Source: Vulcanimicrobiota bacterium (GTDB taxonomy: Bacteria; Vulcanimicrobiota; Vulcanimicrobiia; Vulcanimicrobiales; Vulcanimicrobiaceae). From it: a stretch of DNA of 58,482 bases. Every line of letters starts with the position of its first letter. The first letter of the stretch is position 1. Under the pieces are notes generated by a model. It did no database searches. It worked only from the letters and a program-made list of their open reading frames with translations, and had not been told where the DNA came from. The translations under genes and the position numbers were made by a program. The stretch is taken from the NCBI GenBank assembly GCA_028287565.1, contig JAQBPK010000284.1:1-58482 (forward strand), in the 5' to 3' direction. Below, piece by piece: positions 4,027 to 49,501 of this stretch.

Positions 4027-4881
4027 TCAGGCCGCAGTCAACCGTGAGTTTTGGGTGCTTTGATATTGCTGGATGAACTCGGCCGGCGTCAAGCCGCCAA
4101 GGGACGTATGAGGCCGTCGCAGGTTGTAATCGACGCGCCAACTCTCGATCGCCACTCGCGCATGAAAGATCGTCGGGAACGCGTGCTCATTGAGCAGCTC
4201 GTCGCGGAACCGACCGTTGAAGCTCTCGACGCTGCCGTTCTGCATCGGACGGCCGGGGTCGATGAAGTGCAAGTCGACGTTGGCCTGCGCCGCCCAGCCC
4301 AGCATCGCGTTACTCGTAAATTCGGTGCCATTGTCGAACTTCAGCGTCGGCGGGAGGCCGCGTTGAGCCGCCAGCCGTGAGAGAACGCGTACGACCCGGT
4401 CGCCGGTAAGCGAGAAATCGACTTCGATACCGATTGACTCGCGCGTGAAGTCGTCGACGATCGTGAGCGTACGGAACTTGCGCCCGGTGCTGAGCAGGTC
4501 ATGCACGAAGTCCAGCGACCAGCGCTCGTTCGGACGGGAGACCGCGGTAATTGCGTTGCCCCGGACGTACCGCACGCCGCGCTTGCGCCTCGGCCGCAGT
4601 TCGAGCCCATGTGCGCGGTAGATCCGATGCACCCGCTTGTGGTTGACCAGAAAGCCCTCGCGGCGCAGCATCAACGTGAGCCGACGGTAGCCGAACCGCC
4701 GACGCTCGTGCGCCAGCGACGTCAGCCGTTCGAGCAGCCGCGGATCTTCGATGCGGCGCATTGTGTATTGCGCTACCGATCGCGGACAGCGCGCGATACG
4801 GCATGCGGCGCGCTGACTCACGCCGAGCTCCTGCAGGGCCCTCACCGCGGCTTTTCGCTGCGAGGGCCCCAGGAGTTTTTT
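4027..4881 (-). CDS. IS3-family transposase OrfB (DDE integrase part)
   Basis: OrfB supplies the DDE catalytic domain. The frame contains the HTH_21-like RRFGYRRLTLMLRREG region, the integrase core ERWSLDFVHDLL (first D), KFDNGTEFTSNAML (second D) and MQNGSVESFNGRFRDELLNE (catalytic E), and ends with RRPHTSLGGLTPAEFI. It is read as an OrfAB fusion after a -1 frameshift at the A-run at 4876-4881. The long upstream extension of the open frame to 5172 lies over OrfA in another frame and is not a real N-terminus. Confidence 0.92.
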   Translation of the reverse strand, partial: KKLLGPSQRKAAVRALQELGVSQRAACRIARCPRSVAQYTMRRIEDPRLLERLTSLAHERRRFGYRRLTLMLRREGFLVNHKRVHRIYRAHGLELRPRRKRGVRYVRGNAITAVSRPNERWSLDFVHDLLSTGRKFRTLTIVDDFTRESIGIEVDFSLTGDRVVRVLSRLAAQRGLPPTLKFDNGTEFTSNAMLGWAAQANVDLHFIDPGRPMQNGSVESFNGRFRDELLNEHAFPTIFHARVAIESWRVDYNLRRPHTSLGGLTPAEFIQQYQSTQNSRLTAA

Positions 4882-5135
4882 GCGATCAGTTCTTTCATCG
4901 CGTCGTTCTCGAGCGAGAGGTTCGCAATGATGCGTTTCATCCGCCCGTTCTCGTCCTCGAGTGCGCGGCCGCGAGCGATTTCGCTGCTCTCCATGCCGCC
5001 GTACTTGCTCTTCCAGGCCGAGATCGTGTTGGGATGCACGCCGTGACGCCGGCCCAACTCGACGAACGAGGCGCCGGCATCGTGCTCGCGGAGGATCGAG
5101 ACAATCTGCGTCTCGGTGAAGCGGGACTTCCGCAT
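4842..5135 (-). CDS. IS3-family transposase OrfA (HTH part)
   Basis: This 97-residue OrfA is the DNA-binding subunit. It begins MRKSRFTETQIVSILREHD, carries the helix-turn-helix with GVHPNTISAWKSKYGG, and ends in a leucine-zipper-like helix (LEDENGRMKRIIANLSLEN). Near its end the codons GCA AAA AAC form the slippery heptamer A-AAA-AAC; shifting back one base gives AAA AAA and continues into OrfB. ATG 5135 has a ribosome site in AAAGGAAC. Confidence 0.93.
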   Translation of the reverse strand: MRKSRFTETQIVSILREHDAGASFVELGRRHGVHPNTISAWKSKYGGMESSEIARGRALEDENGRMKRIIANLSLENDAMKELIAKNSWGPRSEKPR

Positions 5136-5290
5136 GGCGGGTTCCTTTCGGCCTTGCGGCCGGGAAACCCACGGTGTCAGGTGGCCCGGATTATCGGGGC
5201 GGCGTCAACAACGAAACCCGTCCCCATTCCAGCCTGGGCTACCTCGCGCCGACGGCGTGGCGCGAGCGTCAGGCGAAACAAACCGCATAA

Positions 5291-7236: not shown

Positions 7237-8742
7237 GTGCGACGCAGCAGCATTCGTAACCTAAAGATTACGGAAGTATCCGACACACCATTTAAGTTCG
7301 GCGGCGGCGTCGGCGCCGACGGTCGTGCCGCGTTCGGCGCGGCGAGATTCGCCGAACTGCCCAAAACCGCGATGTCGTTCCTCGCGACCGAAAGTCTTGC
7401 CGCCCGGCGCGCGGGGCACGTCGCCGGCATGATCTTCCTCCGTGCGCCGGCGTGGCGGGCCCAGCAGCGCGTCTTCGAACACTTGTCGATCCTCCGTTCG
7501 CCTGCGTGGGACGCCGAGAGGCGCCTCATGCAGCAGAACGCCATCTTGAGCTCCTTGGGCTGGCAGGCCATGCAGCGTGGCATCGAACGGACGCTGCCCT
7601 TGATGTCGGCCGCGTACAAGCGTGTCGCCCGCGACGCGCAGCTCCTCGCGACCAAGGCGCCCGGAATACCGGAGTGGGCGCTAGGCATGTTCCCGCGTTT
7701 CGCGGCCGTCGAGATCGCGCGGCGCCTCCCCGCCGAGGCCTACGAGCCGTCCGCCAAGTACGCCGAAATCGTGCCGGTGCGCCGCAGGCGCGCGAAGATC
7801 CGCGTCGTCCGCAGAAAGCAGACCGAAGCGGACGAGGGACCACGGCTCCCGCCCGACCCCCCAACTTCGGCCTACGTCCGAACCGCTTCTGAATCCCGTC
7901 AACACCCGATGAGGCAGAGAACAGAACATCGAGCCGAGATTCCCTCAGGCGCCGTGACCGACGCGCTGGCCTCCGTGATGGGCAACAGGAGCCCATTAAT
8001 CACGTGGGAACCGACGGGTTGGGCGAATCAAAGTGAACGGAATCCCGCTCGCCGAGCACCACGCGCGCTTCAAGCGGCCGGACGACGCCGTCTACCACAA
8101 GCAGACGCACGAGGCGATGAACCGGTTTATGGCCTGCGCATCGAACGAATGGAAACGACGTACCGCACGACCTATTCAATCTCAGACAAGATTTCGTTCT
8201 TCCTCGACGCATATCTTGAGAAGGTCACGTTCCGGGAAGTATGGACAAAGACGAAGGGCACTCCGTTCGCGTCGGCTCAGAACTGGCCCTTATGGGGGCT
8301 CTACGGGCTCTCGCGTGATCTCTTTGAACCAGACTTCATGGCAGTGACGCAGCCGGATTCCGAGGCTGTCGCAGAGATCCGGAATCACTTGGAGCACAAG
8401 TACCTGCGCGTGGTACGTGACGATGTGGCAACCGGTGGGGTACGAGTCAATGCAGACCCGCTTGTATATGTCGTCAAGCAACATGCCTTCGAGAAGCGGA
8501 CGCTGCGGCTTCTCAACCTCGCACGCGCGGCCCTCATTTTCCTCGTACTTGCAATCCACGCTGAGGAGCGCGGGAAAGAAAACGCGGGAATCAGCGGCCC
8601 GAAAACGACGCTACCGCGTTGTAGTTTGCCTGAGTCTTCGCTGACATGCATCAACATTCGACCGGTATTTCCCGACAGCGCCGGCGCTGCTGGAAGCGCC
8701 CGTTTCGATATCGCCGGCGTCATGTTGCAAGTAATCGTGTAA
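7237..8742 (+). pseudogene. LA2681-like HEPN protein, frameshifted
   Basis: The second half matches the LA2681-type HEPN family: YGLRIERMETTYRTTYSI, DKISFFLDAYLEKVTFREVW, NWPLWGLYGLSRDLFE, then EIRNHLEHKYL with the R-X4-H motif of HEPN RNases, and a C-terminal helix. The segment that should directly precede it, GIPLAEHHARFKRPDDAVY, is in another frame (from GTG 8033), so a frameshift lies between about 8095 and 8130. The first 250 residues, with repeated AW-R helices (APAWRAQQRV, SPAWDAERRL), have good codon use but no family I know. Start GTG 7237 is uncertain. It could also be one gene with a sequencing error. Confidence 0.65.
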
Positions 8743-10151: not shown

Positions 10152-10680
10152 GTGTTGGACCCCGATCACCCCGTGGCCGAGCCGATGCGGCGGCTGCTCG
10201 TCGCGATGGAGCGCGCCTACCCGCTCCCCGCCTTGGTCGCGAGGTTGCTGCGGCTCGAGCCGCCCGAGCGCGAGTCTGAAGCGGCGACCGCCACGCCGTC
10301 TTCAGCGGACCCATCCCGACCCGGATCCTGCTCACGAAAGGAGTCCTCGGGTGGATCTTCGAGCCCCTGTGCGTCGCCTCGTCGGTCGGCTCCTACCGCG
10401 AGAGCGTGAAGAACGCCATGAAGCGGATGGAGGACGACGGCATCCTCGGTGCCGACCGGGCACGCGGCCCGGGCTTCAACGTCCGCGTCGTGACGATCTC
10501 GTACCGATCCCCGCGAAGGCCGAACAGGAAGACACGCTGCGCGCCTGCGCCGAGGCGTGGCCCGCGATCGGCGACGCCGTTCGGAACGCAATGCACGGTT
10601 CACGCCCAAGACTAAGGCGCACCTCAGGAAGCGCGGGCTCTGGGGAGAATATAATTGCGGAACAGCGGAAACGACAATAG
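10152..10680 (+). pseudogene. Winged-helix-like gene broken by two frameshifts
   Basis: Plausible coding sequence moves through all three frames: MRRLLVAMERAYPLPALVAR from about 10152, then FSGPIPTRILLTKG and ESVKNAMKRMEDDGILG from about 10295, then IPAKAEQEDTLRACAEAW from about 10500 to the stop at 10680. The middle part resembles the recognition helix and wing of small winged-helix regulators ('...SVKNAMKRMEDDGIL...'). With two shifts it cannot make a full product. It abuts the gene at 10731. Confidence 0.5.
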
Positions 10681-10730
10681 ACGTAGAAGTCGGCTGTTGT
10701 TGTCCGGTGTTCGCCATCCCGGGAGGCAGC

Positions 10731-11726
10731 ATGGATGTCCGCGCGGTTATCATCGAACAGCTTGAACTGAATAGCACGCTTCGCTCATTCCGCATGCATC
10801 CGACCCGTAGTGAAAGGCTAATAGTCGCGTTTGCTGATGAATATGACGAACCGCGTAGCGGTCCGTTCCATTTCTTCGATCCGAGGCACGAACGCGCGTA
10901 CGGGCGCGGACTCGCCGCCTGTACGGAAAAAAAACTCGGGCCAACTCGATTTCGCCGCGAGGGGAACCGGTATCATTTCAGCACGTGCTTTGACGGAATA
11001 CCTACCGAGTCGCACCGGCTGAGCTACTACGCGCTATCGCTACCGCCATACGCAGTTCCGAACAGTGTGCGTTTCTTCGATCCCAGACAACCCGAGCGCG
11101 AATATTCTAAGTCCGTTACCCGAGACGATCAGCATAAGAGGTTTGTTCTATACCTGGAGTGCCGATCAAAATCCGGTGCGTTCGGTTTCTGTCTTGAGGT
11201 TGAGTTTTCAACGGTGGACCCCGAGGCCTTTTCCGAAGCGGATTACCACGATGATAAGCTCGCGCTTTACGGAGGATATGCAGGCGCGTATCAGTATCAA
11301 CTCGAGAACGAGCAGGAACAGAGGGTTCAGAACTTTTTTGACGGACCCGTGGTTATGGGGGACCAATACGTGAATCGCGACCAATCGTCAACCTTCAACA
11401 ACTACGCGCCGGTCGGTGCTCTGCAAGTGGGCGCCAATAACGTGGCTAACGTAAGCCAAGCCGCGAACCTTACTGCGGTTACCAACGCGGTTCGCGTTCT
11501 CCGCGAGCATATTGCGGAATTCCCCGAGACCGATCGAGACGAGGTCGAGCAACACGTGGCGTCAATCGAGGAGGAGCTATCCTCGGCTGCCCCGAGGGCA
11601 TCCCGATTGAAGACCTGGCTTACATCCGTACAACGCATTGCCGCACCGCTTGCGGGCTCGGGGGTCAAGGCCGTGACGGAGGCTGCCGTGAGCAGCGCGA
11701 TCAAGAGTCTCATGGGCGCGCCCTAG
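10731..11726 (+). CDS. Hypothetical protein with GDQYVNRDQ linker, probable signalling/defence component
   Basis: A 331-residue soluble protein. ATG 10731 has GGGAGG just upstream; the longer open frame is spurious. Residues 1-195 form an unrecognised mixed domain (TLRSFRMHPTRSERLIVAFA, RFVLYLECRSKSGAFGF). A middle segment reads VVMGDQYVNRDQSS and GALQVGANNVAN, a low-complexity 'GD-Y-N' linker often seen between sensor and effector parts of bacterial STAND/EAD-type conflict proteins. The C-terminal 110 residues are helical, ending in a small hydrophobic helix (AVTEAAVSSAIKSLMG). Codon use is less GC-biased than the housekeeping genes. Confidence 0.6.
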   Translation: MDVRAVIIEQLELNSTLRSFRMHPTRSERLIVAFADEYDEPRSGPFHFFDPRHERAYGRGLAACTEKKLGPTRFRREGNRYHFSTCFDGIPTESHRLSYYALSLPPYAVPNSVRFFDPRQPEREYSKSVTRDDQHKRFVLYLECRSKSGAFGFCLEVEFSTVDPEAFSEADYHDDKLALYGGYAGAYQYQLENEQEQRVQNFFDGPVVMGDQYVNRDQSSTFNNYAPVGALQVGANNVANVSQAANLTAVTNAVRVLREHIAEFPETDRDEVEQHVASIEEELSSAAPRASRLKTWLTSVQRIAAPLAGSGVKAVTEAAVSSAIKSLMGAP

Positions 11727-12597: not shown

Positions 12598-15156
12598 TTG
12601 AATTTCTCGGGTGTTCCGCCCTTCGGTGGGTCGTCGCAAACGGATGACCCGATTAAGATATTTGACGAATCGCCGAAGCCGCCGGGCATTAACGATTTGT
12701 ATAAGTCACAAGCGGACGTCCTGCGAACCTGGTACGAATCGTCAGCGAGAGATACCGTAGTCAAGATGCATACCGGCGGTGGAAAGACGCTGGTTGGCCT
12801 TCTCATTGCAAAGTCGATTCTAATCGCGAGCGGTAAGCCGGTCCTTTATCTGTGTCCCAATAATCAACTTGCCGAGCAGACGCTTCGCAAGGCCTCGCTT
12901 TACAGTATTGACGCTGTCGGCTACCCGCCCAGCGGCTTCCCCGCGGCCTTCGACAACGCTGACGCAGTAATGATCGCGAACTACAAAGCGCTGTTTAATG
13001 GTCAAAGTCGATTTGGTACCGCGAGCGGGAATAAGCCAGCAGTTGAGCTCGGTGGGATAATTGTCGACGACGCTCACGCCGCTTTCGCTGACCTGCGGGA
13101 CGTTTTCACGTACACCGCTTCAGCTAGAGAAGACCCCGAATTTTATCGGTACCTGTCGAATCTGTTCCGAGACGATTTCGATGCAATCGGGAAGCTCGGC
13201 ACCTTCGACGACATTGCGACAAGCGCTGCGGCGTCCGTTCTTGAGGTCCCGTACTGGGCATGGCGGGCGAAGGAGGGTGAAATTCGCGCCGCGATTAGCG
13301 CGAGACCATCGAAAGATTCAAATGGAAAGCTGATCGACGAAGAGCGATTCTTCAAATGGCCGTTCTTGCGCGACCAGTTATATGCGTGCCATGCACTCGT
13401 GTCCGCTCGTGGGTTTACAATAACGCCGATTCTGCCCCTTGTGGACGAAGTTCCTAGCTATGCCGAATGTCCGCAGCGCGTTTTCATGTCCGCGACCGTC
13501 AATGACGACTCTACTCTAATCCGCACTTTTAGAGTGGATGATTCATATCTCGCAATTGCGGCGCCGGGCGCAACCGGCATAGCGGAGAGGTACATTTTCG
13601 CGCCGGCTTTCACGTCTAATTTTGAATCGTCATACGATGAAACGACTCAATATCTTGCTAAACATGTGTCTGGCGACCGCGACAAAGGCGTGATCGTCCT
13701 CGCGCCGTCCGAGAAAAGCGCAACACCGTGGGATAGCACCGCAAAGATCGTAAAGGGCCATGCGGAAGTTGTGAAGGCCCTTGCTGAGCTAAACGCTGGT
13801 GCAACGCGTGGGCCGATTGTTTTTCTAAACCGGTACGACGGGCTCGATTTACCCGAGGACGCTTGCCGTCTTGTCGTACTATGGGATCTCCCGCATGGTG
13901 CCGGCGATTATGACGATTATCGCGCAACAATGCTCTACGGAGGTGACGAACTTGCAGCCGCAGTTGCTCGAACGATTGAACAGGGTATGGGCCGGGGGGC
14001 CCGGGGCGCAAGCGATTATTGTATCGTCATTTTCGCCGGCCGATCTCTGGAAAGTTGGATCGCAAAAAGAGCAAACCTCAGACACCTTTCGCTGGCAACG
14101 CAGATTCAGATCGAAATCGGGCGAGGAGTGTCATCATCGCTAAATTCCGTAGATGAGTTAAAGTCAGCGGTTGACACTGTCCTGGACCGCGATAAGCGGT
14201 GGACCACAATGCACGCATCGCGGCTGTCGGCTAGTCTCGAGCAGGCCTCGCAAGAGAAGGTGGACACTTCGGTGGCGTTTGACGAGCGACAGGCATTTGC
14301 TTTGCTGCGCTCGCGCCGCTTTGAGGAGACGCGGCGTAAGTATGAGGCTATTGCGTCAAAGACGACAGATTCGCGGCTTACGGCTTGGTACCTGCAGTTA
14401 GCAGCGCGGTCTGCATTGTACGGTAGCGATGCCACCGCCGCCGAGCGACTTCAGAACGACGCCAGCGCATCGAATGACCGCTTTCCGCGTCCGTTGCAAA
14501 ATCGCCGATATCTCCCGATCGCGGAGCCGACGGACCAAAGTCGGGCGATAGCGGCGATTATCGAAGAGCATGATCCGCCGAGCGGCACGCTCATAAGTAT
14601 AGTAGACGACCTTGCGAACCTAACTCCGCAATCGTCGGCTACCCAATTCGAAGAGTCGCTCGCGCGACTCGGTCGCTACTTGGGGTTTGCGACGCAGCGA
14701 CCTGAGAAGTCGGACAAGATTGGACCAGACGTCTTGTGGCTTGCTCCGGGGCACGCCTTTGTTCTTGAGGCAAAAAGCAGGAAATTTGCACAAAATCGTA
14801 TTGCGAAGAGCGAGGTCGGACAGCTGTTAACATCAGCGACGTGGTTTGAAGAACGCTACCCAGGAGTTCCGTTTACACATGCGATCGTCGCTCCCAACCC
14901 GACGCGTGAGAACAACGTCGTAGCTGGGACCTGTTATGCGCTAAGCTTAGCAAAACTTTTGGAACTTGTGCGGGACGTGCGTACACTGTACAAAGACCTG
15001 ACCGCTCTGTCCGATGTATCGTCGAACTTAGCGCAACAGGCCTCCTCGTTGCTTAAGACGACAGCCTTGCTCCCCAAACGTCTCACGGGTGGATACTTTG
15101 TCCCGCTGCAGGGCGCGCTTGCGCCAGCGAAGCCGACATCCGAGGCCGAGGAATGA
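12598..15156 (+). CDS. SF2 DEAD/DEAH-type helicase fused to a PD-(D/E)XK nuclease
   Basis: An 852-residue protein. Helicase motifs: Q-like LYKSQADVLRTW, motif I HTGGGKT (58-64), motif II DDAH (157-160), motif III SAT (298-300), FLNRYDGLDLPEDACR (about 409-424) and motif VI EQGMGRGARG (461-470). A helical spacer leads to a restriction-type nuclease fold: FEESLARLGRYLGF (684-697), GPDVLW (709-714), then VLEAKS with E724 and K726, the PD-ExK triad. It starts at TTG 12598, eight bases after GGGGGA. Codon use (AAT, TTT, CGA common) is clearly less GC-rich than its neighbours, a sign of transfer. It probably acts alone or with lost partners as an anti-phage helicase-nuclease; I cannot match it to a named system. 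Confidence 0.88.
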   Translation: MNFSGVPPFGGSSQTDDPIKIFDESPKPPGINDLYKSQADVLRTWYESSARDTVVKMHTGGGKTLVGLLIAKSILIASGKPVLYLCPNNQLAEQTLRKASLYSIDAVGYPPSGFPAAFDNADAVMIANYKALFNGQSRFGTASGNKPAVELGGIIVDDAHAAFADLRDVFTYTASAREDPEFYRYLSNLFRDDFDAIGKLGTFDDIATSAAASVLEVPYWAWRAKEGEIRAAISARPSKDSNGKLIDEERFFKWPFLRDQLYACHALVSARGFTITPILPLVDEVPSYAECPQRVFMSATVNDDSTLIRTFRVDDSYLAIAAPGATGIAERYIFAPAFTSNFESSYDETTQYLAKHVSGDRDKGVIVLAPSEKSATPWDSTAKIVKGHAEVVKALAELNAGATRGPIVFLNRYDGLDLPEDACRLVVLWDLPHGAGDYDDYRATMLYGGDELAAAVARTIEQGMGRGARGASDYCIVIFAGRSLESWIAKRANLRHLSLATQIQIEIGRGVSSSLNSVDELKSAVDTVLDRDKRWTTMHASRLSASLEQASQEKVDTSVAFDERQAFALLRSRRFEETRRKYEAIASKTTDSRLTAWYLQLAARSALYGSDATAAERLQNDASASNDRFPRPLQNRRYLPIAEPTDQSRAIAAIIEEHDPPSGTLISIVDDLANLTPQSSATQFEESLARLGRYLGFATQRPEKSDKIGPDVLWLAPGHAFVLEAKSRKFAQNRIAKSEVGQLLTSATWFEERYPGVPFTHAIVAPNPTRENNVVAGTCYALSLAKLLELVRDVRTLYKDLTALSDVSSNLAQQASSLLKTTALLPKRLTGGYFVPLQGALAPAKPTSEAEE

Positions 15157-15831: not shown

Positions 15832-17442
15832 TTATGTGTGGTCTGCCATGGTCGTTGGCTTCGACGGGAGGCGACCCAGGACAACCTGCTGCGTCGTCGG
15901 ATCGAAAATGAAGCCGACGTACAGCATCCGGCGGGGATCGTACGTCTTGCCCTTGGAACGTACGTGATACATCACCAAGTTTTGGTCGTTCCAGCGCAAT
16001 CGGTGATCATCGTCGGCGCCCATTTCGGTCGCGCTCGCGCCGTGCTTCATATAGAGGGCCTCGCAGGCTGCATTCCAGCGTTCGTGCGCCCCCTCGACAC
16101 CGCGCTCACGGTCATAGTAGTGCGTGGCGATCGCATCGAGCACGTGGACTAACTGCGCGCCATGCTCGTATTCGCTATCGCGGTAGAATCGACGAGCGCG
16201 CGGCGAGACGACGATGCGCCCTTGGTAGCGCGCATCAACGAAGGCGACAAATTCGTCTGGGCCGATCGGCGCGACGGCATCGTCACCGAGAACGAGGCCC
16301 GGGGCGTCGTTTGCGGCTACAAGAGCGTCGCGCTCAGCGCGCCAGCGGTATTCAGCGTTGCGGGCACTGTGCGCCAGGTCTTCGGCGTCTTGCCGCTCTT
16401 CGAGCAGCCGTTGATTGTCCGCTTCGAGCTCTTTCCAGAAAATCTGCTGCTCGTCGAGCCGTGCCTGAAGCGCATCGCGTGCCGCGCCCGCAGCCGCCAG
16501 TTGTTGCTCGAGGTGCGCCAGATCTTCGCGGACCTGCGGGCCGATCGTGTCCTGTCGCAATCGGGCCTGGCGGTCGACCTCCCCGATCGTCAGCAGCGGA
16601 CGCGTAGCAAGCGAGAGTGCGGTCCGCGCCAGCGCGAGCCGCACGATGCGCTCGGTGGCGGGCAAACCTTCGTTGATCTGCGCGAGGCGCGCGCCCAACC
16701 ACAGTGGTGCCGTGTGTGGAGGATCGATCCAGCGAAATCCCGCCGGGTAGGTACGAACGCCGCCGTGGAATACGGAGCGATACCGGCCAACGCGATCCGT
16801 GAGAGCGAGGGCGGCTTCATGGTTAATCGTGAAGATGTGGGCTGCGCCGGCAAGGCGCTCCGCGAGGTCGCCGGGATCGACAACGGTGGGAACGCTGATG
16901 ACCAGGACCGGGAGCTGTCGTCCGGGGTTGGCAATTAGCTCGACGACGTAGTCAATGTCGGCGGCAGTCAACGCCGCGGGCACAGTGCTGAGCGGAATGA
17001 CATCGCGCAGTGCGACGTTCGCATCGCCGATGGCGTGCGCGACGAAGACTGGTGTACGCCGAGGCGCGTAAGGCGCTTCGACCGGTTGATCGACTGTGAC
17101 GCGGACGTCGAGCGCTACGCCGCTGCCGCGCGCCGCAATTTCCGTCGTCCAGCGCCGCGCGGGCACTAGGTCGTCGCGTTCTATTACCTGGATGACGAGG
17201 TGCTGGTCGTCCCGGTCTACGTTGATCTCCGCGCGATCGTTCGCTGCGCGGTGGCGGCCGACGTCGCCGGGCAGGTCGAGGCCCTTCAACCTGGCTTTCC
17301 GCGTGAGCCAGCGCTCGAGGATCATGAGCAGCCCGCCACGGTCGCCGATCCCTGCAAGGGCGAGGCGGATCGCGGTCTCGCGTATACCCGCGGCGCGCAG
17401 GTTGGGGTCGGCGGGCGGAGGTGGGACCAGCGGTATCGTCAT
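15832..17442 (-). CDS. Large coiled-coil protein of unknown family, defence-island style
   Basis: A 536-residue protein read from ATG 17442 (MTIPLVPPPPADPNLRAAGI); the longer frame to 17643 is not credible. Residues 1-120 are basic. Residues about 120-230 form an alpha/beta domain with TPVFVAHAIGDANVALRDVI, PVLVISVPTVVDPGDLAERL and GAAHIFTINHEAAL, a pattern I have seen in unclassified actinobacterial proteins of defence regions. Residues about 320-400 are a coiled coil (DLAHLEQQLAAAGAARDALQ). The last 130 residues end with a beta-hairpin-like YVGFIFDPTTQQVVLGRLP. No catalytic motif is evident. It stands alone between an IS relic and a gene-poor segment. Confidence 0.7.
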   Translation of the reverse strand: MTIPLVPPPPADPNLRAAGIRETAIRLALAGIGDRGGLLMILERWLTRKARLKGLDLPGDVGRHRAANDRAEINVDRDDQHLVIQVIERDDLVPARRWTTEIAARGSGVALDVRVTVDQPVEAPYAPRRTPVFVAHAIGDANVALRDVIPLSTVPAALTAADIDYVVELIANPGRQLPVLVISVPTVVDPGDLAERLAGAAHIFTINHEAALALTDRVGRYRSVFHGGVRTYPAGFRWIDPPHTAPLWLGARLAQINEGLPATERIVRLALARTALSLATRPLLTIGEVDRQARLRQDTIGPQVREDLAHLEQQLAAAGAARDALQARLDEQQIFWKELEADNQRLLEERQDAEDLAHSARNAEYRWRAERDALVAANDAPGLVLGDDAVAPIGPDEFVAFVDARYQGRIVVSPRARRFYRDSEYEHGAQLVHVLDAIATHYYDRERGVEGAHERWNAACEALYMKHGASATEMGADDDHRLRWNDQNLVMYHVRSKGKTYDPRRMLYVGFIFDPTTQQVVLGRLPSKPTTMADHT

Positions 17443-18252
17443 GGTGCACGCACGACGTTCGCGATGGATGTGCCTTTTCCACGCACTTTTTGACCAAGGC
17501 AGGCCTCTAAGCTCGCGGTCGTAGGCCGAAGCGGCACGTTGCCGGCGCGCCCGGGTCGCGCGTCGGCAATGCGAACTCAACGTGTACGTCCGCCCTGCCA
17601 CAGATTTTCGGTCGACCTTCATTGCAGGGCAACCATGCCCCATGCCGTGCCGTACCGGGATCGGAACCCTTGTGCCTTACTGCTTTGGCGCTGCGGCGGA
17701 CAAGCTGGAATGCTGTCTCCCTGATGGCGGGCGGGAACGACGGAGTCTATTGGACCGTGGACGGTTTGACGCCACAAACTCGCGAAACTCGACGCGTTCG
17801 GACGCGCGGTCGTGCCGCTCGGCCAGCTCAGCGAGTCGACTCACACGCTTACGTTCGGAGCGACGGCGACCAAGCTCGATCAGCAAGTCTGCTTTCGCCC
17901 TTTTTCAGGAGCCGGCTGACTCGGAATCCATAAACTGAACTTCGACCGTCACAACAAGCGTGCTCGTGACGTGCGATCCGGCTGGCACCGACCGAGCTCA
18001 CATCGGTCGAGATAATCCAGTCTGCGGAAATCGCAGAACGCGATCGCTTCAAGATAACGCAGCTCTGTCCGATACGCCGCGATATCATTGCGGAAGGAAC
18101 GCAGCAAGGCGCGGAGATGGCGACGGTGGCCGGCGATCGTCGCCGGGTCGCCGCGCGCGACGTGTACGGCTACCCAAACGAGGCGGGCCAATCGGCTGGT
18201 GATGCTGTTTCGGTCAGGGCGCGGCAGGCGCGCGAAAGGGCGCGCCCAAGCG
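17443..18252. other. Gene-poor stretch before the first repeat cassette
   Basis: About 800 bases with only fragmentary open frames on both strands. The best is on the minus strand (see 17949-18191). No RNA gene or IS homology was recognised. Confidence 0.35.
17949..18191 (-). CDS. Possible small hypothetical protein or gene fragment
   Basis: From TTG 18191 an 80-residue frame reads LARLVWVAVHVARGDPATIA, HRRHLRALLRSFRND and AYRTELRYLEAIAFCDF before the stop. Codon third positions are moderately GC-rich, as expected for coding sequence here, but there is no ribosome site and the upstream frame runs into the repeat cassette. It may be the tail of a lost gene. Confidence 0.25.
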   Translation of the reverse strand: MARLVWVAVHVARGDPATIAGHRRHLRALLRSFRNDIAAYRTELRYLEAIAFCDFRRLDYLDRCELGRCQPDRTSRARLL

Positions 18253-20545: not shown

Positions 20546-21820
20546 CTAGTGATCTCGGGTCAGGAAGGCGTCAGCCATTTCATCTTGCTCGCTTCGTTTG
20601 ATGCCGAGCGCGCTCGCGACGTCGCGCCAATTGCGGACCGCGTCTGCGATGCGAGAGATGATCTCGCTTGCCTGACGGGCTTTGATGCGAAAATACGGCG
20701 CGACGGATCGCACGAGATCGAGATCGAGCGCATTGTCCGTCTCGTCGATGTTCAATGCTAGGCCGGTCGAGCGCGCGGCCGGATTCATGTCGTACGCCGG
20801 AGACAGACGCCAACCGCTGCCGGGCGTCAGGAGAAAGCCGTGGTTGCGGAGATGGTCATCGGTGTTAGACACCATCACGCTGAACACGATGCGAGACCAG
20901 AGCTCGATGAGATCCTCGCGTGGTGTAGCGCCGTGTGATGCGAGAACTTCGGCGATTTCGAGATAGCTCGCGCCCGCCGATGCGTCGTCGCCGTCGTTGC
21001 GTCCGGTCAGCGTCATCGCCGAAGCGAAGTGGATGCGCGTACCCGATTCGCTGCGATCGAAGCGCCGTGCCAAGAACGTATGCTCGGCGCTTGCGAACTT
21101 GCGGGCGTTACTAACCGGTACGCGTAGGCCGGACCGGTCTGCGAGCTGCTGAAGGACCGACTCCCATGCACCCACGTCGTAGTGATCCTTGACGCTGGGA
21201 AATTTTGCGACCCACAAATGTCCGTCGAGATCAACAACGGTTGCCTTCGGTCTCGCCCCGCCAAGCGACGCTCCCGGTGCTAGGAGCAAGCGAAGCCACT
21301 CATCTGTCGCCGAGTCGTCGCCGTTCGGGTCGTTTTCGATTGCGCGGCTCGCCGCCTCGAGCTTGCGCAGCCGAACGAACGGCGGCGCGGCGCTTCCGTC
21401 GCGGTTATCGAGGAACGGCCCGTCGGCTGCAAGTTTGTAGCGCAACGCTCCCGACCGAAACGCATCGTGCACGCCGAGCAAGTAGTCTGATTCGCCCAGT
21501 CCCGCGTTTCGCGGCACCAACCCGGCGCGCTTCTGTCGTTCGAACCGGCGTCGGATGAGTGTTTGTCCCCACCGATCGGGGCTCGAGTCCTTGAAGACGC
21601 CGAACGTCGTGCGCCCGTTCTTTGGGAATTGCGGCCCGGGAAAGAAGCCCAGGTCGGGATCGAGCGCCTGTTTTTTGAGCATCGCGTCTGCGAGCGCGGC
21701 GTCGTCGAACGTGAAGTCGAAGATCTCACCCGTTCGCCCTGCGCGCGCGCGTAATGTTCCGAGGCGCGTCGCCGGCTCGTCGCTGCTCCAATCGCGGTAG
21801 ACTTCGATTACGCCTTCCAT
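20546..21820 (-). CDS. hipA: HipA-type serine/threonine kinase toxin
   Basis: A 424-residue HipA toxin, a kinase that in known members phosphorylates a translation factor such as GltX and causes growth arrest. The N-terminal subdomain has FFPGPQFPKNGRTTFGVFKD and SSPDRWGQTLIRRRF. The core has SLGGARPKATV (P-loop-like, about residues 200-210), WVAKFPS, the catalytic loop NTDDHLRNHGFLL and the metal site AYDMNP, so all key kinase residues are present. It starts at ATG 21820, overlapping the hipB end by 13 bases. Its length is normal and it appears intact. Confidence 0.94.
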   Translation of the reverse strand: MEGVIEVYRDWSSDEPATRLGTLRARAGRTGEIFDFTFDDAALADAMLKKQALDPDLGFFPGPQFPKNGRTTFGVFKDSSPDRWGQTLIRRRFERQKRAGLVPRNAGLGESDYLLGVHDAFRSGALRYKLAADGPFLDNRDGSAAPPFVRLRKLEAASRAIENDPNGDDSATDEWLRLLLAPGASLGGARPKATVVDLDGHLWVAKFPSVKDHYDVGAWESVLQQLADRSGLRVPVSNARKFASAEHTFLARRFDRSESGTRIHFASAMTLTGRNDGDDASAGASYLEIAEVLASHGATPREDLIELWSRIVFSVMVSNTDDHLRNHGFLLTPGSGWRLSPAYDMNPAARSTGLALNIDETDNALDLDLVRSVAPYFRIKARQASEIISRIADAVRNWRDVASALGIKRSEQDEMADAFLTRDH

Positions 21821-37860: not shown

Positions 37861-38643
37861 ATGGTCGATCGCCTGTTCGCGGACGCCGGCCTCGCCGCAT
37901 TGTACGACCAGATGTGCCCGCGAGGACAACGAGCGGACTTCGATTTCTATTTACCGCTCGTCATGTCGGCGAGGTCCGTTCTCGATGTCGGCTGCGGGAC
38001 GGGTGCAATGCTGAAGGAGGCTCGGGATGCCGGTCATTCAGGTCGGCTTTGCGGACTCGACCCGGCTTCGGGTATGCTGGCGCAGGCGCGTAAACGGCCG
38101 GATATCGAGTGGATTTTGGGGGATCTCGCGTCGACCGGCTGGGACAGCGAGTACGACCTCGTCGTCATGACGGGTCATGCCTTTCAGGTACTCATCGAGG
38201 ACGATGAGCTCCGTCGCTCGCTCGCCGCTATCCGTTCGGCGTTGACCGATGACGGCCGTTTCGTCTTCGAAACGCGAAACCGGCTGTCAAGAGCATGGGA
38301 CGACTGGACGCCGGAAAACCCGGTCGAGTTCACCGACTCCGAAGGTGTCAACGTGCGAATGACCCGCAGGGTCACTGCCACTGTTGATGACCGCCTCGTC
38401 TCGTTCACCCACACGTTTATCAGTCCGAGATGGAATCAGCCGCAGGTGAGTACGAGCACATTGCGATTTTTTGATGCGGCTTCGCTATCGCGTTTTCTGA
38501 TTGACGCCGGTCTTTTTATCGAGGAACAGTTTGGAGACTGGGACCGAACGCCGGTGACCGCCGCGAGCCCGGAGATCATCACCATCGCGCGCAAAGATGC
38601 CACGAGGCCGAGCCGCATACCACGAAACCGAGCCGGCGGGTAA
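37861..38643 (+). CDS. Class I SAM-dependent methyltransferase
   Basis: 260 residues of Rossmann methyltransferase. Motif I is VLDVGCGTGAMLKEA (about residues 41-55), motif II the acidic GLDPASGMLAQAR, then ILGDLAS and DLVVMTGHAFQVL (motif IV region), and RFVFETRNRL. The C-terminal beta-rich part (TSTLRFFDAASLSRFLIDAG) is like small-molecule methyltransferases. The substrate cannot be told. ATG 37861 is preceded by AGGATTGGTGA. It is followed directly by the truncated Abi copy. Confidence 0.88.
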   Translation: MVDRLFADAGLAALYDQMCPRGQRADFDFYLPLVMSARSVLDVGCGTGAMLKEARDAGHSGRLCGLDPASGMLAQARKRPDIEWILGDLASTGWDSEYDLVVMTGHAFQVLIEDDELRRSLAAIRSALTDDGRFVFETRNRLSRAWDDWTPENPVEFTDSEGVNVRMTRRVTATVDDRLVSFTHTFISPRWNQPQVSTSTLRFFDAASLSRFLIDAGLFIEEQFGDWDRTPVTAASPEIITIARKDATRPSRIPRNRAGG

Positions 38644-46733: not shown

Positions 46734-47813
46734 ATGGATAAGCTCGTATTCTCGCCGTGGTATATCAACACCAGACGTCTTTCAGACGTTACTCGAACAG
46801 CGCTAAGTCCCGCCGCCCAAGTATCTGTTGCTCACAATAACCTCGAACGCGTCGCGGCCATGAGCGAGGCACGGTTTATTGCGCAGAGGTTTGTCGATAG
46901 TGGCAAGGTTCCGAATCTTGCCGACCTAATCGTCAAAGAGAAGTTTCCGGGCCGCGTGGTGGCTGGCGTCTGGAGTAACGCAATCTTCCGAGGGTCAAGT
47001 GCTGCGGCCAAAGCGTCTCACGACGGCAAACGGTTTTCAAAGCCGACATTTTCACTCAGGGTCCTGATTGGCGACGACGAGTGCATCTTGACCGGAACGC
47101 TTGAGATTGAGCACTACTATTCTTCATCAGCCGTGACGTACATGAGCCGACGAACGCAAGCGTACTTCGTCGGGCAATACGAACTCGCCGAAGGAGCGCG
47201 GTTGGGGACACTCGTGCCCTGGCTCATTGGAGACTTGCTAGAGCCAGTCGACGTGCTGCCGATGAGTTGGGGACGTGCCGCGGACGTATATGTTGGCCTT
47301 ATCGACGCCTTTGTGAAGATGCGTAAAGTTCGACCGCCCGCAGAACGAGAAGTCGTACGCATTATGCGACGGATCTCTGAGGCACAGATTAAGCAGGCTT
47401 TCTCTCAACTTATTGGCGAGCCATTCGTCCCAAAAGACTGGGGCGGTGAGCGTTCAGATCTCTATACGAGCCGGCTCAGCGTTGATGGGAAGCCGACTAC
47501 TGCGGCTTTTCTGTTGAAAGGTCCCTCAGTGCCCGGCCCGATGCACGTAGCTGATACTGGAAAGCGTGGCGACCAGATCCCGAGGCTCTTTGAAGAGCCC
47601 GCTGACTTAATGATCCTACAGCACTGCAATAAAGTTGAAACGTCGGTTGTTAAGACGATGCGCGTCTTTGCTGTTGATCCGGCCCGGCCTCGGAGCTATT
47701 GCATCATCGATGGCGTTGACACATACTGCATACTTAAGGCTTACGGGTACCTAGATAAGTCGGACGCCTTTAAGCCCAGGCGTGACCCGAAGGCAAGACG
47801 GCGAAAGCATTAG
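46734..47813 (+). CDS. Defence-island-type hypothetical protein
   Basis: 359 residues, soluble, with clearly lower GC and different codon use from the propeller genes just before it. The C-terminal 120 residues carry AAFLLKGPSVPGPMHVADTG, KRGDQIPRLFEEPADLMILQ, HCNKVETSVVKTMRVFAV and YCIIDGVDTYCILKAYG, a pattern I recall from unclassified proteins near restriction and phage-defence genes; the AAFLLKG strand could belong to a PD-(D/E)XK-like fold, but this is uncertain. A nuclease-like gene follows, now broken. ATG 46734 lacks a strong ribosome site. Confidence 0.65.
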   Translation: MDKLVFSPWYINTRRLSDVTRTALSPAAQVSVAHNNLERVAAMSEARFIAQRFVDSGKVPNLADLIVKEKFPGRVVAGVWSNAIFRGSSAAAKASHDGKRFSKPTFSLRVLIGDDECILTGTLEIEHYYSSSAVTYMSRRTQAYFVGQYELAEGARLGTLVPWLIGDLLEPVDVLPMSWGRAADVYVGLIDAFVKMRKVRPPAEREVVRIMRRISEAQIKQAFSQLIGEPFVPKDWGGERSDLYTSRLSVDGKPTTAAFLLKGPSVPGPMHVADTGKRGDQIPRLFEEPADLMILQHCNKVETSVVKTMRVFAVDPARPRSYCIIDGVDTYCILKAYGYLDKSDAFKPRRDPKARRRKH

Positions 47814-47990
47814 TTCCGACTTTTCTAACAAGGTTGTTGCCAGGCGCCTTCGATAGGAGCATTGAGGTGACTGATGATGTCGTGGCGGCTTGCCGGAACG
47901 GCTGCGCGACTGTCATCTGCGCGTGCCAGTGTGTCGCTTCCTCACGGTGAGGTGCGCATTGTTCCGATCTTACATGAAGGAGCCTCTATG

Positions 47991-48470
47991 ATTGTGTCAA
48001 CCAAACGCGTGCCGAATTTCCTGGAGCAGCTGGTTGCGGAATGGTACGAGTATCGTGGCTATTTCGTTCGCCGAAATGTCCTCGTAGGTCGTCGATCTCA
48101 AGGGGGACAAGACGGCGAACTCGATATCGTGGCCTTTAATCCACCTTAAAATCATTTCGTCCAAATTGAACCCTCCATGGACACCGAGAGTTGGCAGAAG
48201 CGCGATGAGAGGTTTAGTGGGGAATTTCGCGTGGGCGGGAGAATATCAGCCTCCTCTTCGATGCTCTGGCGCTCCCCAAACCTGAGCAGCTCGCGCTATT
48301 AGTTTACGGCTCTCGCGATCGCAACAATATCGGAGGTGCGCGCATTGTCTGGATTTAGGACCTTATGATGGACATTCACGCCGTGTTCCCGTTAGTACCG
48401 TCCAAACTCATTCCCGAGCAGTTCACGATCCTCCGATCATTGCAGTTTGCCCGGTCGTATTCGCCATAAC
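47991..48470 (+). pseudogene. Restriction-endonuclease-like (PD-(D/E)XK) gene, broken
   Basis: From ATG 47991 the frame reads RVPNFLEQLVAEWYEYRGYF, VRRNVLVGRRSQGGQDGELD and IVAFNPP, a typical PD-(D/E)XK start (E in the first helix, ELD on the second strand). A TAA at 48147 interrupts it, but the frame continues NHFVQIEPSMDTESW, shifts near 48240, then reads LPKPEQLALLVYGSRDRNN, a TAG, and MDIHAVFPLVPSKLIPEQFT with LRSLQFARSY at the end. Two stops and one shift make it a pseudogene. It follows the 46734 gene and may have been its nuclease partner. Confidence 0.7.
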
Positions 48471-48712
48471 CGTGTCGGCCCGAAAAGGCGACCGAAAGTT
48501 TAGCAAGACGCACCGCATGGCCGCAAGGCGTCACCTCTGGTATCTCAAGGGTCCCTTACGGGCACTCTCAATACAAAGAAGCGGCGCGGCTTCGCGCGTC
48601 TCAACAGGGATGTCCGACATGCCACGCGATGTTCCAAAGGTCTTAGAGAGGGGCTGCCTCTAACGAACCGACTGGCTTTGACATCGTGCGCGCGGCAAAT
48701 TAGGATATAAAT
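48471..48712. other. Intergenic, lower-GC segment
   Basis: About 240 bases after the broken nuclease with no convincing gene; a 63-residue plus-strand frame has no recognisable features. AT-rich TAGGATATAAATATGG precedes the next gene. Confidence 0.3.
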
Positions 48713-49285
48713 ATGGCAAGTAAGGCGCTTATCGACAGACTTCCCGGAAAACTGGGAGACGCTTTGTTTTCTACCTTAGCGACGACTGAAACGATTCTTG
48801 TCAGCATGCACACTGCACAAGGTGAAGGACTTGTCGTCACAGACCGCCGCACAATCGTTTTGAAGGCTGGTCTCTATGCGAATGCTGGAATCTCTGGTAA
48901 GAAGGCTATTTCGTACGCGTTTCGAGATATTTCAAGCGTAGAACATCGGGAAGGAATAGTGGGCGGTCACGTGAAGATTCTCGTCGCTGGTGTCCTCGAA
49001 TCGTCATCGTCAAACTTCGCGGCCGGTAACAACAGTTATTGGGGAAAAAATCGCGAGAGCGAAAATGTGGTTACTTACGAAGGCCGTGATATGCGGGATC
49101 TCATGAGAGAAGCAGTGTCAATCATTCAAGAGAGGATGGAACTGGCTCATGCGCCTGCCGTACCATCCCGATCCTCGGAGACCGATCTGGCTTCACAACT
49201 GCTTAAGCTCGAGGAACTTCGTAAGGCCGGAGTTCTTTCCGAAGAAGAGTTTTCGGCGGCTAAGAAGCGCGTCATCGAAGTGTGA
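48713..49285 (+). CDS. Bacterial PH-domain and SHOCT-domain protein
   Basis: 190 residues. Residues about 25-140 look like a YokE/bPH-type domain: ILVSMHTAQGEGLVVTDRRT, IVLKAG, YAFRDISSVEHREGIVGGHV and LVAGVLESSS. The C-terminal 30 residues are a SHOCT module, LLKLEELRKAGVLSEEEFSA followed by AKKRVIEV, a short oligomerisation or interaction helix pair found on many small bacterial proteins. It is cytoplasmic. Base composition is lower in GC, as in the two genes before it. Confidence 0.8.
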   Translation: MASKALIDRLPGKLGDALFSTLATTETILVSMHTAQGEGLVVTDRRTIVLKAGLYANAGISGKKAISYAFRDISSVEHREGIVGGHVKILVAGVLESSSSNFAAGNNSYWGKNRESENVVTYEGRDMRDLMREAVSIIQERMELAHAPAVPSRSSETDLASQLLKLEELRKAGVLSEEEFSAAKKRVIEV

Positions 49286-49501
49286 CCCAGAATTGACTTG
49301 AAACGGTGAAATCTCTGCCTCCGGCTCAGCAATTCGTGAAAGTCGCGGCGGCCCGGAGATCGTTCAATCTCCAGCTTACACCGTAGTTCCCGTTTCGCCA
49401 TCCAAGCCGACGACGCGGCCCTCGTTGAAACATTGGAGCGCGCGCGAGCCAACGTTGTTTCGCCGGTAATTCGTAATGACTGTCGAGGTCCAAGCCGGCG
49501 T

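Follow-up and report, generated by a model that had tools for sequence, protein, structure and literature searches.

A homologue of the helicase-nuclease Hna in a Vulcanimicrobiota genome lies in a sister branch to the characterised S. meliloti protein

Hna and other helicase-nuclease defence systems

The principle of joining a helicase to a nuclease is shared by the single-gene protein considered here with Zorya (ZorD), Hachiman (HamAB), Gabija and Nhi, whose gene sets and architectures are unlike its own. Hna (helicase-nuclease abortive infection) is credited to Sather et al. 2023, as cited in PMC12445080. The Hna of Sinorhizobium meliloti (SmHna), an 845-aa protein encoded by SMa2245 on pSymA, was the subject of a biochemical and cryo-EM study in which the structures 9YKJ and 10UJ are cited (PMC13381803). 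In the same study a canonical FeS cluster was missing from SmHna, and the K729A substitution abolished its nuclease activity (PMC13381803). Residues T30, D31 and P34 were assigned to a dimer loop and R36 together with Q39 to an ATP contact; the R36A/Q39A double mutant lost ATPase activity, cut DNA 15-fold more efficiently and was more toxic, and T30A/D31A/P34A was >10-fold faster (PMC13381803). Among DinG-related proteins, ExoDinG carries its exonuclease at the N-terminus (PMC11981726).

A single gene encodes the helicase motifs and the nuclease site

Within the window, the 58,482-nucleotide stretch of Vulcanimicrobiota DNA that was analysed, the gene of interest and its principal sites are as follows.

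12598..15156, plus strand: hna homologue, an 852-aa SF2 helicase with a C-terminal PD-(D/E)XK nuclease, from its ORF, homology and fold
12682..12714, plus strand: counterpart of the dimer loop and Q motif of SmHna, residues 29-39, with P29, G30, D33, Y35 and Q38 at the positions of SmHna T30, D31, P34, R36 and Q39
12772..12789, plus strand: Walker A motif TGGGKT, residues 59-64, with no variation at T59, G60, G62, K63 or T64 among 93 sequences
13066..13077, plus strand: motif II DDAH, residues 157-160, from the homologue alignment
13978..14004, plus strand: motif VI EQGMGRGAR, residues 461-469, from the homologue alignment
14650..14775, plus strand: PD-(D/E)XK active site, residues 685-726, with E685, P710, D711, E724 and K726 placed by alignment

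The ORF is 852 codons long and opens with TTG; just 6 further codons of open frame precede this TTG, with no alternative start among them, and the N-terminus aligned collinearly with those of the homologues. Pfam matches were obtained to DEAD/ResIII, with Helicase_C_2 below threshold. Across an alignment of 94 proteins, the Walker A motif, DDAH, motif VI, E685, D711, K726 and Q742 were invariant or nearly so, and P710 and E724 differed in just one or two sequences. The motor residues K63, T64, D157, D158, H160, Q462, R466 and R469 were likewise kept across homologues. An earlier reading made from the sequence alone had described one 852-residue gene with helicase motifs and a full E...D...ExK nuclease site, and both the ORF and the alignment agree with it. 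Six Cys residues were found in the protein (86, 264, 291, 423, 475 and 779), and because a single one lies between Walker A and motif II, a four-Cys FeS cluster is impossible in that stretch.

Models, sequence and predicted fold point to Hna

Using PADLOC, the best model for the window protein was PDC-S28/PDLC04986 (residues 13-836; 741 bits; 3.5e-223). The best model for SmHna, searched as the gene from pSymA, was also PDLC04986 (residues 1-842; 1020 bits; E = 0), and therefore PDC-S28 is only a label, that of Hna under an older candidate name. A survey of Bacillus cereus genomes had listed PDC-S28 among PADLOC candidates coinciding with differently named systems (PMC11811056), and the label is now tied to the characterised Hna system. 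A phmmer search against PDB sequences returned a single strong match, chain 10uj_A (E value, 1.7e-91; residues 16-799), whose sequence is identical in 9yhn and 9ykj. An AlphaFold2 model of the window protein, built from a 44-sequence alignment, had a mean pLDDT of 89.5 and a pTM of 0.87. With this model, Foldseek ranked the Hna monomer and dimer at the top (9YHN TM, 0.82/0.85), followed by DinG and XPD, and VIA-align placed the cryo-EM monomer of Hna (9YHN) at Z 43.6 over 801 residues, the next being DinG at 18.1.

The likeness to SmHna extends through the HEL1, HEL2 and NUC architecture (852 versus 845 aa), the Walker A, DDAH and VI motifs, the Q-motif Gln and the P-D...E-x-K site, and includes the absence of a canonical FeS cluster, a single-gene organisation and a mobile distribution. 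P710, D711, E724 and K726 of the window protein correspond to P712, D713, E727 and K729 of SmHna, so that all nuclease residues mutated in SmHna are kept. The two proteins differ in being just 27% identical, in belonging to sister clades, and in the dimer-loop residues and Q-motif Arg, where the window protein has P29, G30, D33 and Y35. With DinG, CasDinG and ExoDinG the likeness is confined to the helicase core fold (Z ∼15 to 18 over ∼360 to 470 residues), and the window protein, unlike ExoDinG, has its PD-(D/E)XK domain at the C-terminus. The PADLOC search with the window protein gave no significant full-length match to ZorD, HamAB, Gabija or Nhi models; a weak match to the ZorD model (E value, 0.003) covered the nuclease region.

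The window gene thus belongs to a family that has been described before and whose structure is solved, within a branch sister to that of the studied protein. Very probably it encodes a Hna-family single-protein abortive-infection defence, even though the low identity to SmHna, the long branch within the sister clade and the replacement of T30/D31/P34 and R36 by P29/G30/D33 and Y35 all speak against this assignment. In the sequence-only reading the gene was a foreign-looking, single-gene SF2 helicase-nuclease, probably anti-phage and with defence-type neighbors, a description that stands; its further claim that no named system matches was overturned by the shared PADLOC model, the phmmer match and the fold. 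The HMM search against PADLOC that it had proposed as a check gave a confident match to a described anti-phage family, PDC-S28, that is, Hna.

Composition and distribution suggest horizontal acquisition

The hna homologue has a GC content of 55.4% and a GC3 of 58.7%, compared with a background of ∼64% GC, and is part of a lower-GC block that extends from ∼11 to 16 kb of the window. Its codon-usage divergence was 0.21, against 0.05 to 0.14 among the seven reference genes, all of them genes of the window, that made up the comparison set. These values bear out the lower GC and foreign-looking codon use noted earlier, and the gene was probably acquired horizontally. A search at 10.0 to 18.5 kb for flanking repeats marking an insertion identified just short, uninformative ones.

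The full-length gene was sought in 98 genomes, comprising its own and those of relatives, and was found in its own genome and in one distant relative (1 of 97). It was missing from all 10 congeners, which, like the other relatives, had at most short, weak helicase-motif matches. Consistent core-genome presence, which the sequence-only reading had named beforehand as a refuting result, was therefore not seen in these genomes, the full-length gene being sporadic. Relatives were identified elsewhere in 257 PLSDB plasmid records, at 35 viral-contig loci and in the genome collection, and are spread over many phyla, including archaea. In that collection 428 candidates were confirmed with an alignment as the query; a protein-pattern scan of it yielded no relatives when the window protein was the sole query. 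Across ∼95 loci inspected for a conserved operon partner, no neighbor cluster occurred at more than seven and none was common to the window, and the two commonest neighbor families were recombinases where annotated. Sporadic presence together with the lack of a conserved neighbor is as expected for a single-gene system that moves horizontally.

The own genome also contains a 193-codon frame that corresponds to the Hna nuclease domain alone (G000:C397:21348-21821, minus strand; L162, 5301-5879, minus strand). In this frame GPDVLW...MEAK is intact, and no helicase match was found on that contig. Nuclease-only stretches were also present on Enterococcus and Lactobacillales plasmids (H94-H101). 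Such frames are either remnants or free-standing nucleases.

Two clades differ at the regulatory contacts of SmHna

A maximum-likelihood tree (quick mode) split the family into clade I, to which the window protein belongs (37 sequences; support, 88), and clade II, which contains SmHna (56 sequences; support, 96). The branch leading to the window protein is long, and its precise position inside clade I is uncertain. At the position of SmHna P34, Asp was found in 37/37 clade I sequences. The position of R36 was occupied by Tyr, Trp or Phe in all 37 and by Arg in 55 of the 56 clade II sequences. Q39 was invariant in both clades, and since the spacing from P34 and R36 to this Gln is nearly gap-free, both positions are safe from alignment error. 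T30 and D31 varied even inside clade II. Clade I therefore retains the nuclease and motor residues without the dimer-loop residues or the Q-motif Arg of SmHna. Because the family is defined by its helicase-nuclease architecture, we regard the dimer loop and R36 as features of the SmHna clade that do not define the family. The restraining contacts of SmHna, described as highly conserved, are thus kept in one of the two major clades at most, and the published regulatory model needs a check in clade I before it is generalised.

Proposed mechanism

By homology with SmHna, the DinG-like helicase core of the window protein would bind ATP and ssDNA without unwinding DNA, and at normal ATP levels the protein would stay restrained, its nuclease activity low. 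During infection a phage factor, which for SmHna is a phage ssDNA-binding protein (SSB), may lift this restraint. The C-terminal PD-(D/E)XK domain would then act as a 3′-5′ ssDNA exonuclease on single-stranded 3′ ends, and the expected outcome would be failed phage replication and cell death. What is established here for the window protein is its anatomy, the conservation of residues for ATPase and nuclease activity, the match in fold and the sporadic distribution; its polarity, ATP restraint, SSB trigger and abortive outcome we infer from SmHna. The catalytic part of the mechanism is transferable. The restraint part, including the exact dimer contact that enforces it, should not be assumed, as the contact residues differ in clade I.

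Alternative explanations

A housekeeping role in DNA repair would be in keeping with the DinG/XPD-like core, these proteins ranking right after Hna in Foldseek; however, the full-length gene is missing from 10/10 congeners and present in 1/97 relatives, its composition is foreign, its relatives are carried on plasmids and viral contigs, and its sequence and fold are far nearer to Hna than to DinG. A repair helicase of the DinG/XPD type is therefore very unlikely and was set aside. Less probable still is a new, unnamed defence system, as had been proposed: the 27% identity to SmHna would suit it, but the PADLOC model, full-length architecture, catalytic residues and fold are all as in Hna.

A third possibility refines the Hna assignment and does not exclude it. 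Here the protein is a Hna whose restraint uses neither the SmHna HEL1 loop dimer contact nor the Q-motif Arg, so that it would perhaps act as a monomer, form dimers through another site or have DNA ends as its gate in place of ATP-bound dimers, a suggestion we regard as tentative. It draws on the uniform Asp and aromatic residues of clade I, set against the Arg of clade II, and on the SmHna mutants R36A/Q39A and T30A/D31A/P34A, both of which release the nuclease (PMC13381803). On the other hand, an aromatic side chain can take over from Arg by stacking against adenine, a loop of another sequence can form a dimer all the same, the similarity to the Hna fold is global, and R36 of SmHna was mutated only jointly with Q39, which is kept here. 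It is conceivable, if doubtful, that throughout clade I, spread as it is over many phyla, the nuclease is restrained by a gate other than the SmHna ATP-dimer switch, perhaps with another phage trigger.

Neighborhood of the hna homologue

The following genes of the window provide context for the hna homologue.

4027-5172: IS3 transposase
7237..8742, plus strand: LA2681-like HEPN protein (HEPN_LA2681; Pfam, 8.1e-37), context only
15832..17643, minus strand: 603-aa protein of the PADLOC candidate defence family HEC-07 (5.7e-64), context outside the Hna system
20546-21820, minus strand: HipA-like protein (HipA_C, 2e-47)

These genes support a defence-rich, mobile stretch, and none of them was tied to Hna at other loci (∼95 examined). 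Of the neighbors named in the sequence-only reading, the HEPN gene was recovered; no clear protease was found beside it. The HEC-07 gene directly adjoins the hna homologue on its 3′ side, and its codon usage resembles that found elsewhere in the window. It was considered as a partner of hna and rejected, as no similar gene was near any other Hna locus examined.

Three further frames were observed in the window. At 10557-11726 (plus strand), a 389-aa protein with a lower GC content (57%) has a C-terminal part that weakly matches PADLOC PDC-M14B (5e-6). A second lower-GC stretch (∼53 to 55%) at 46734-49300 contains a 359-aa ORF with atypical codon use (divergence, 0.33) and no Pfam or PADLOC match. 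A 260-aa ORF at 37861-38643 (plus strand) has a local match to PADLOC mad2 (2e-14; residues 38-144).
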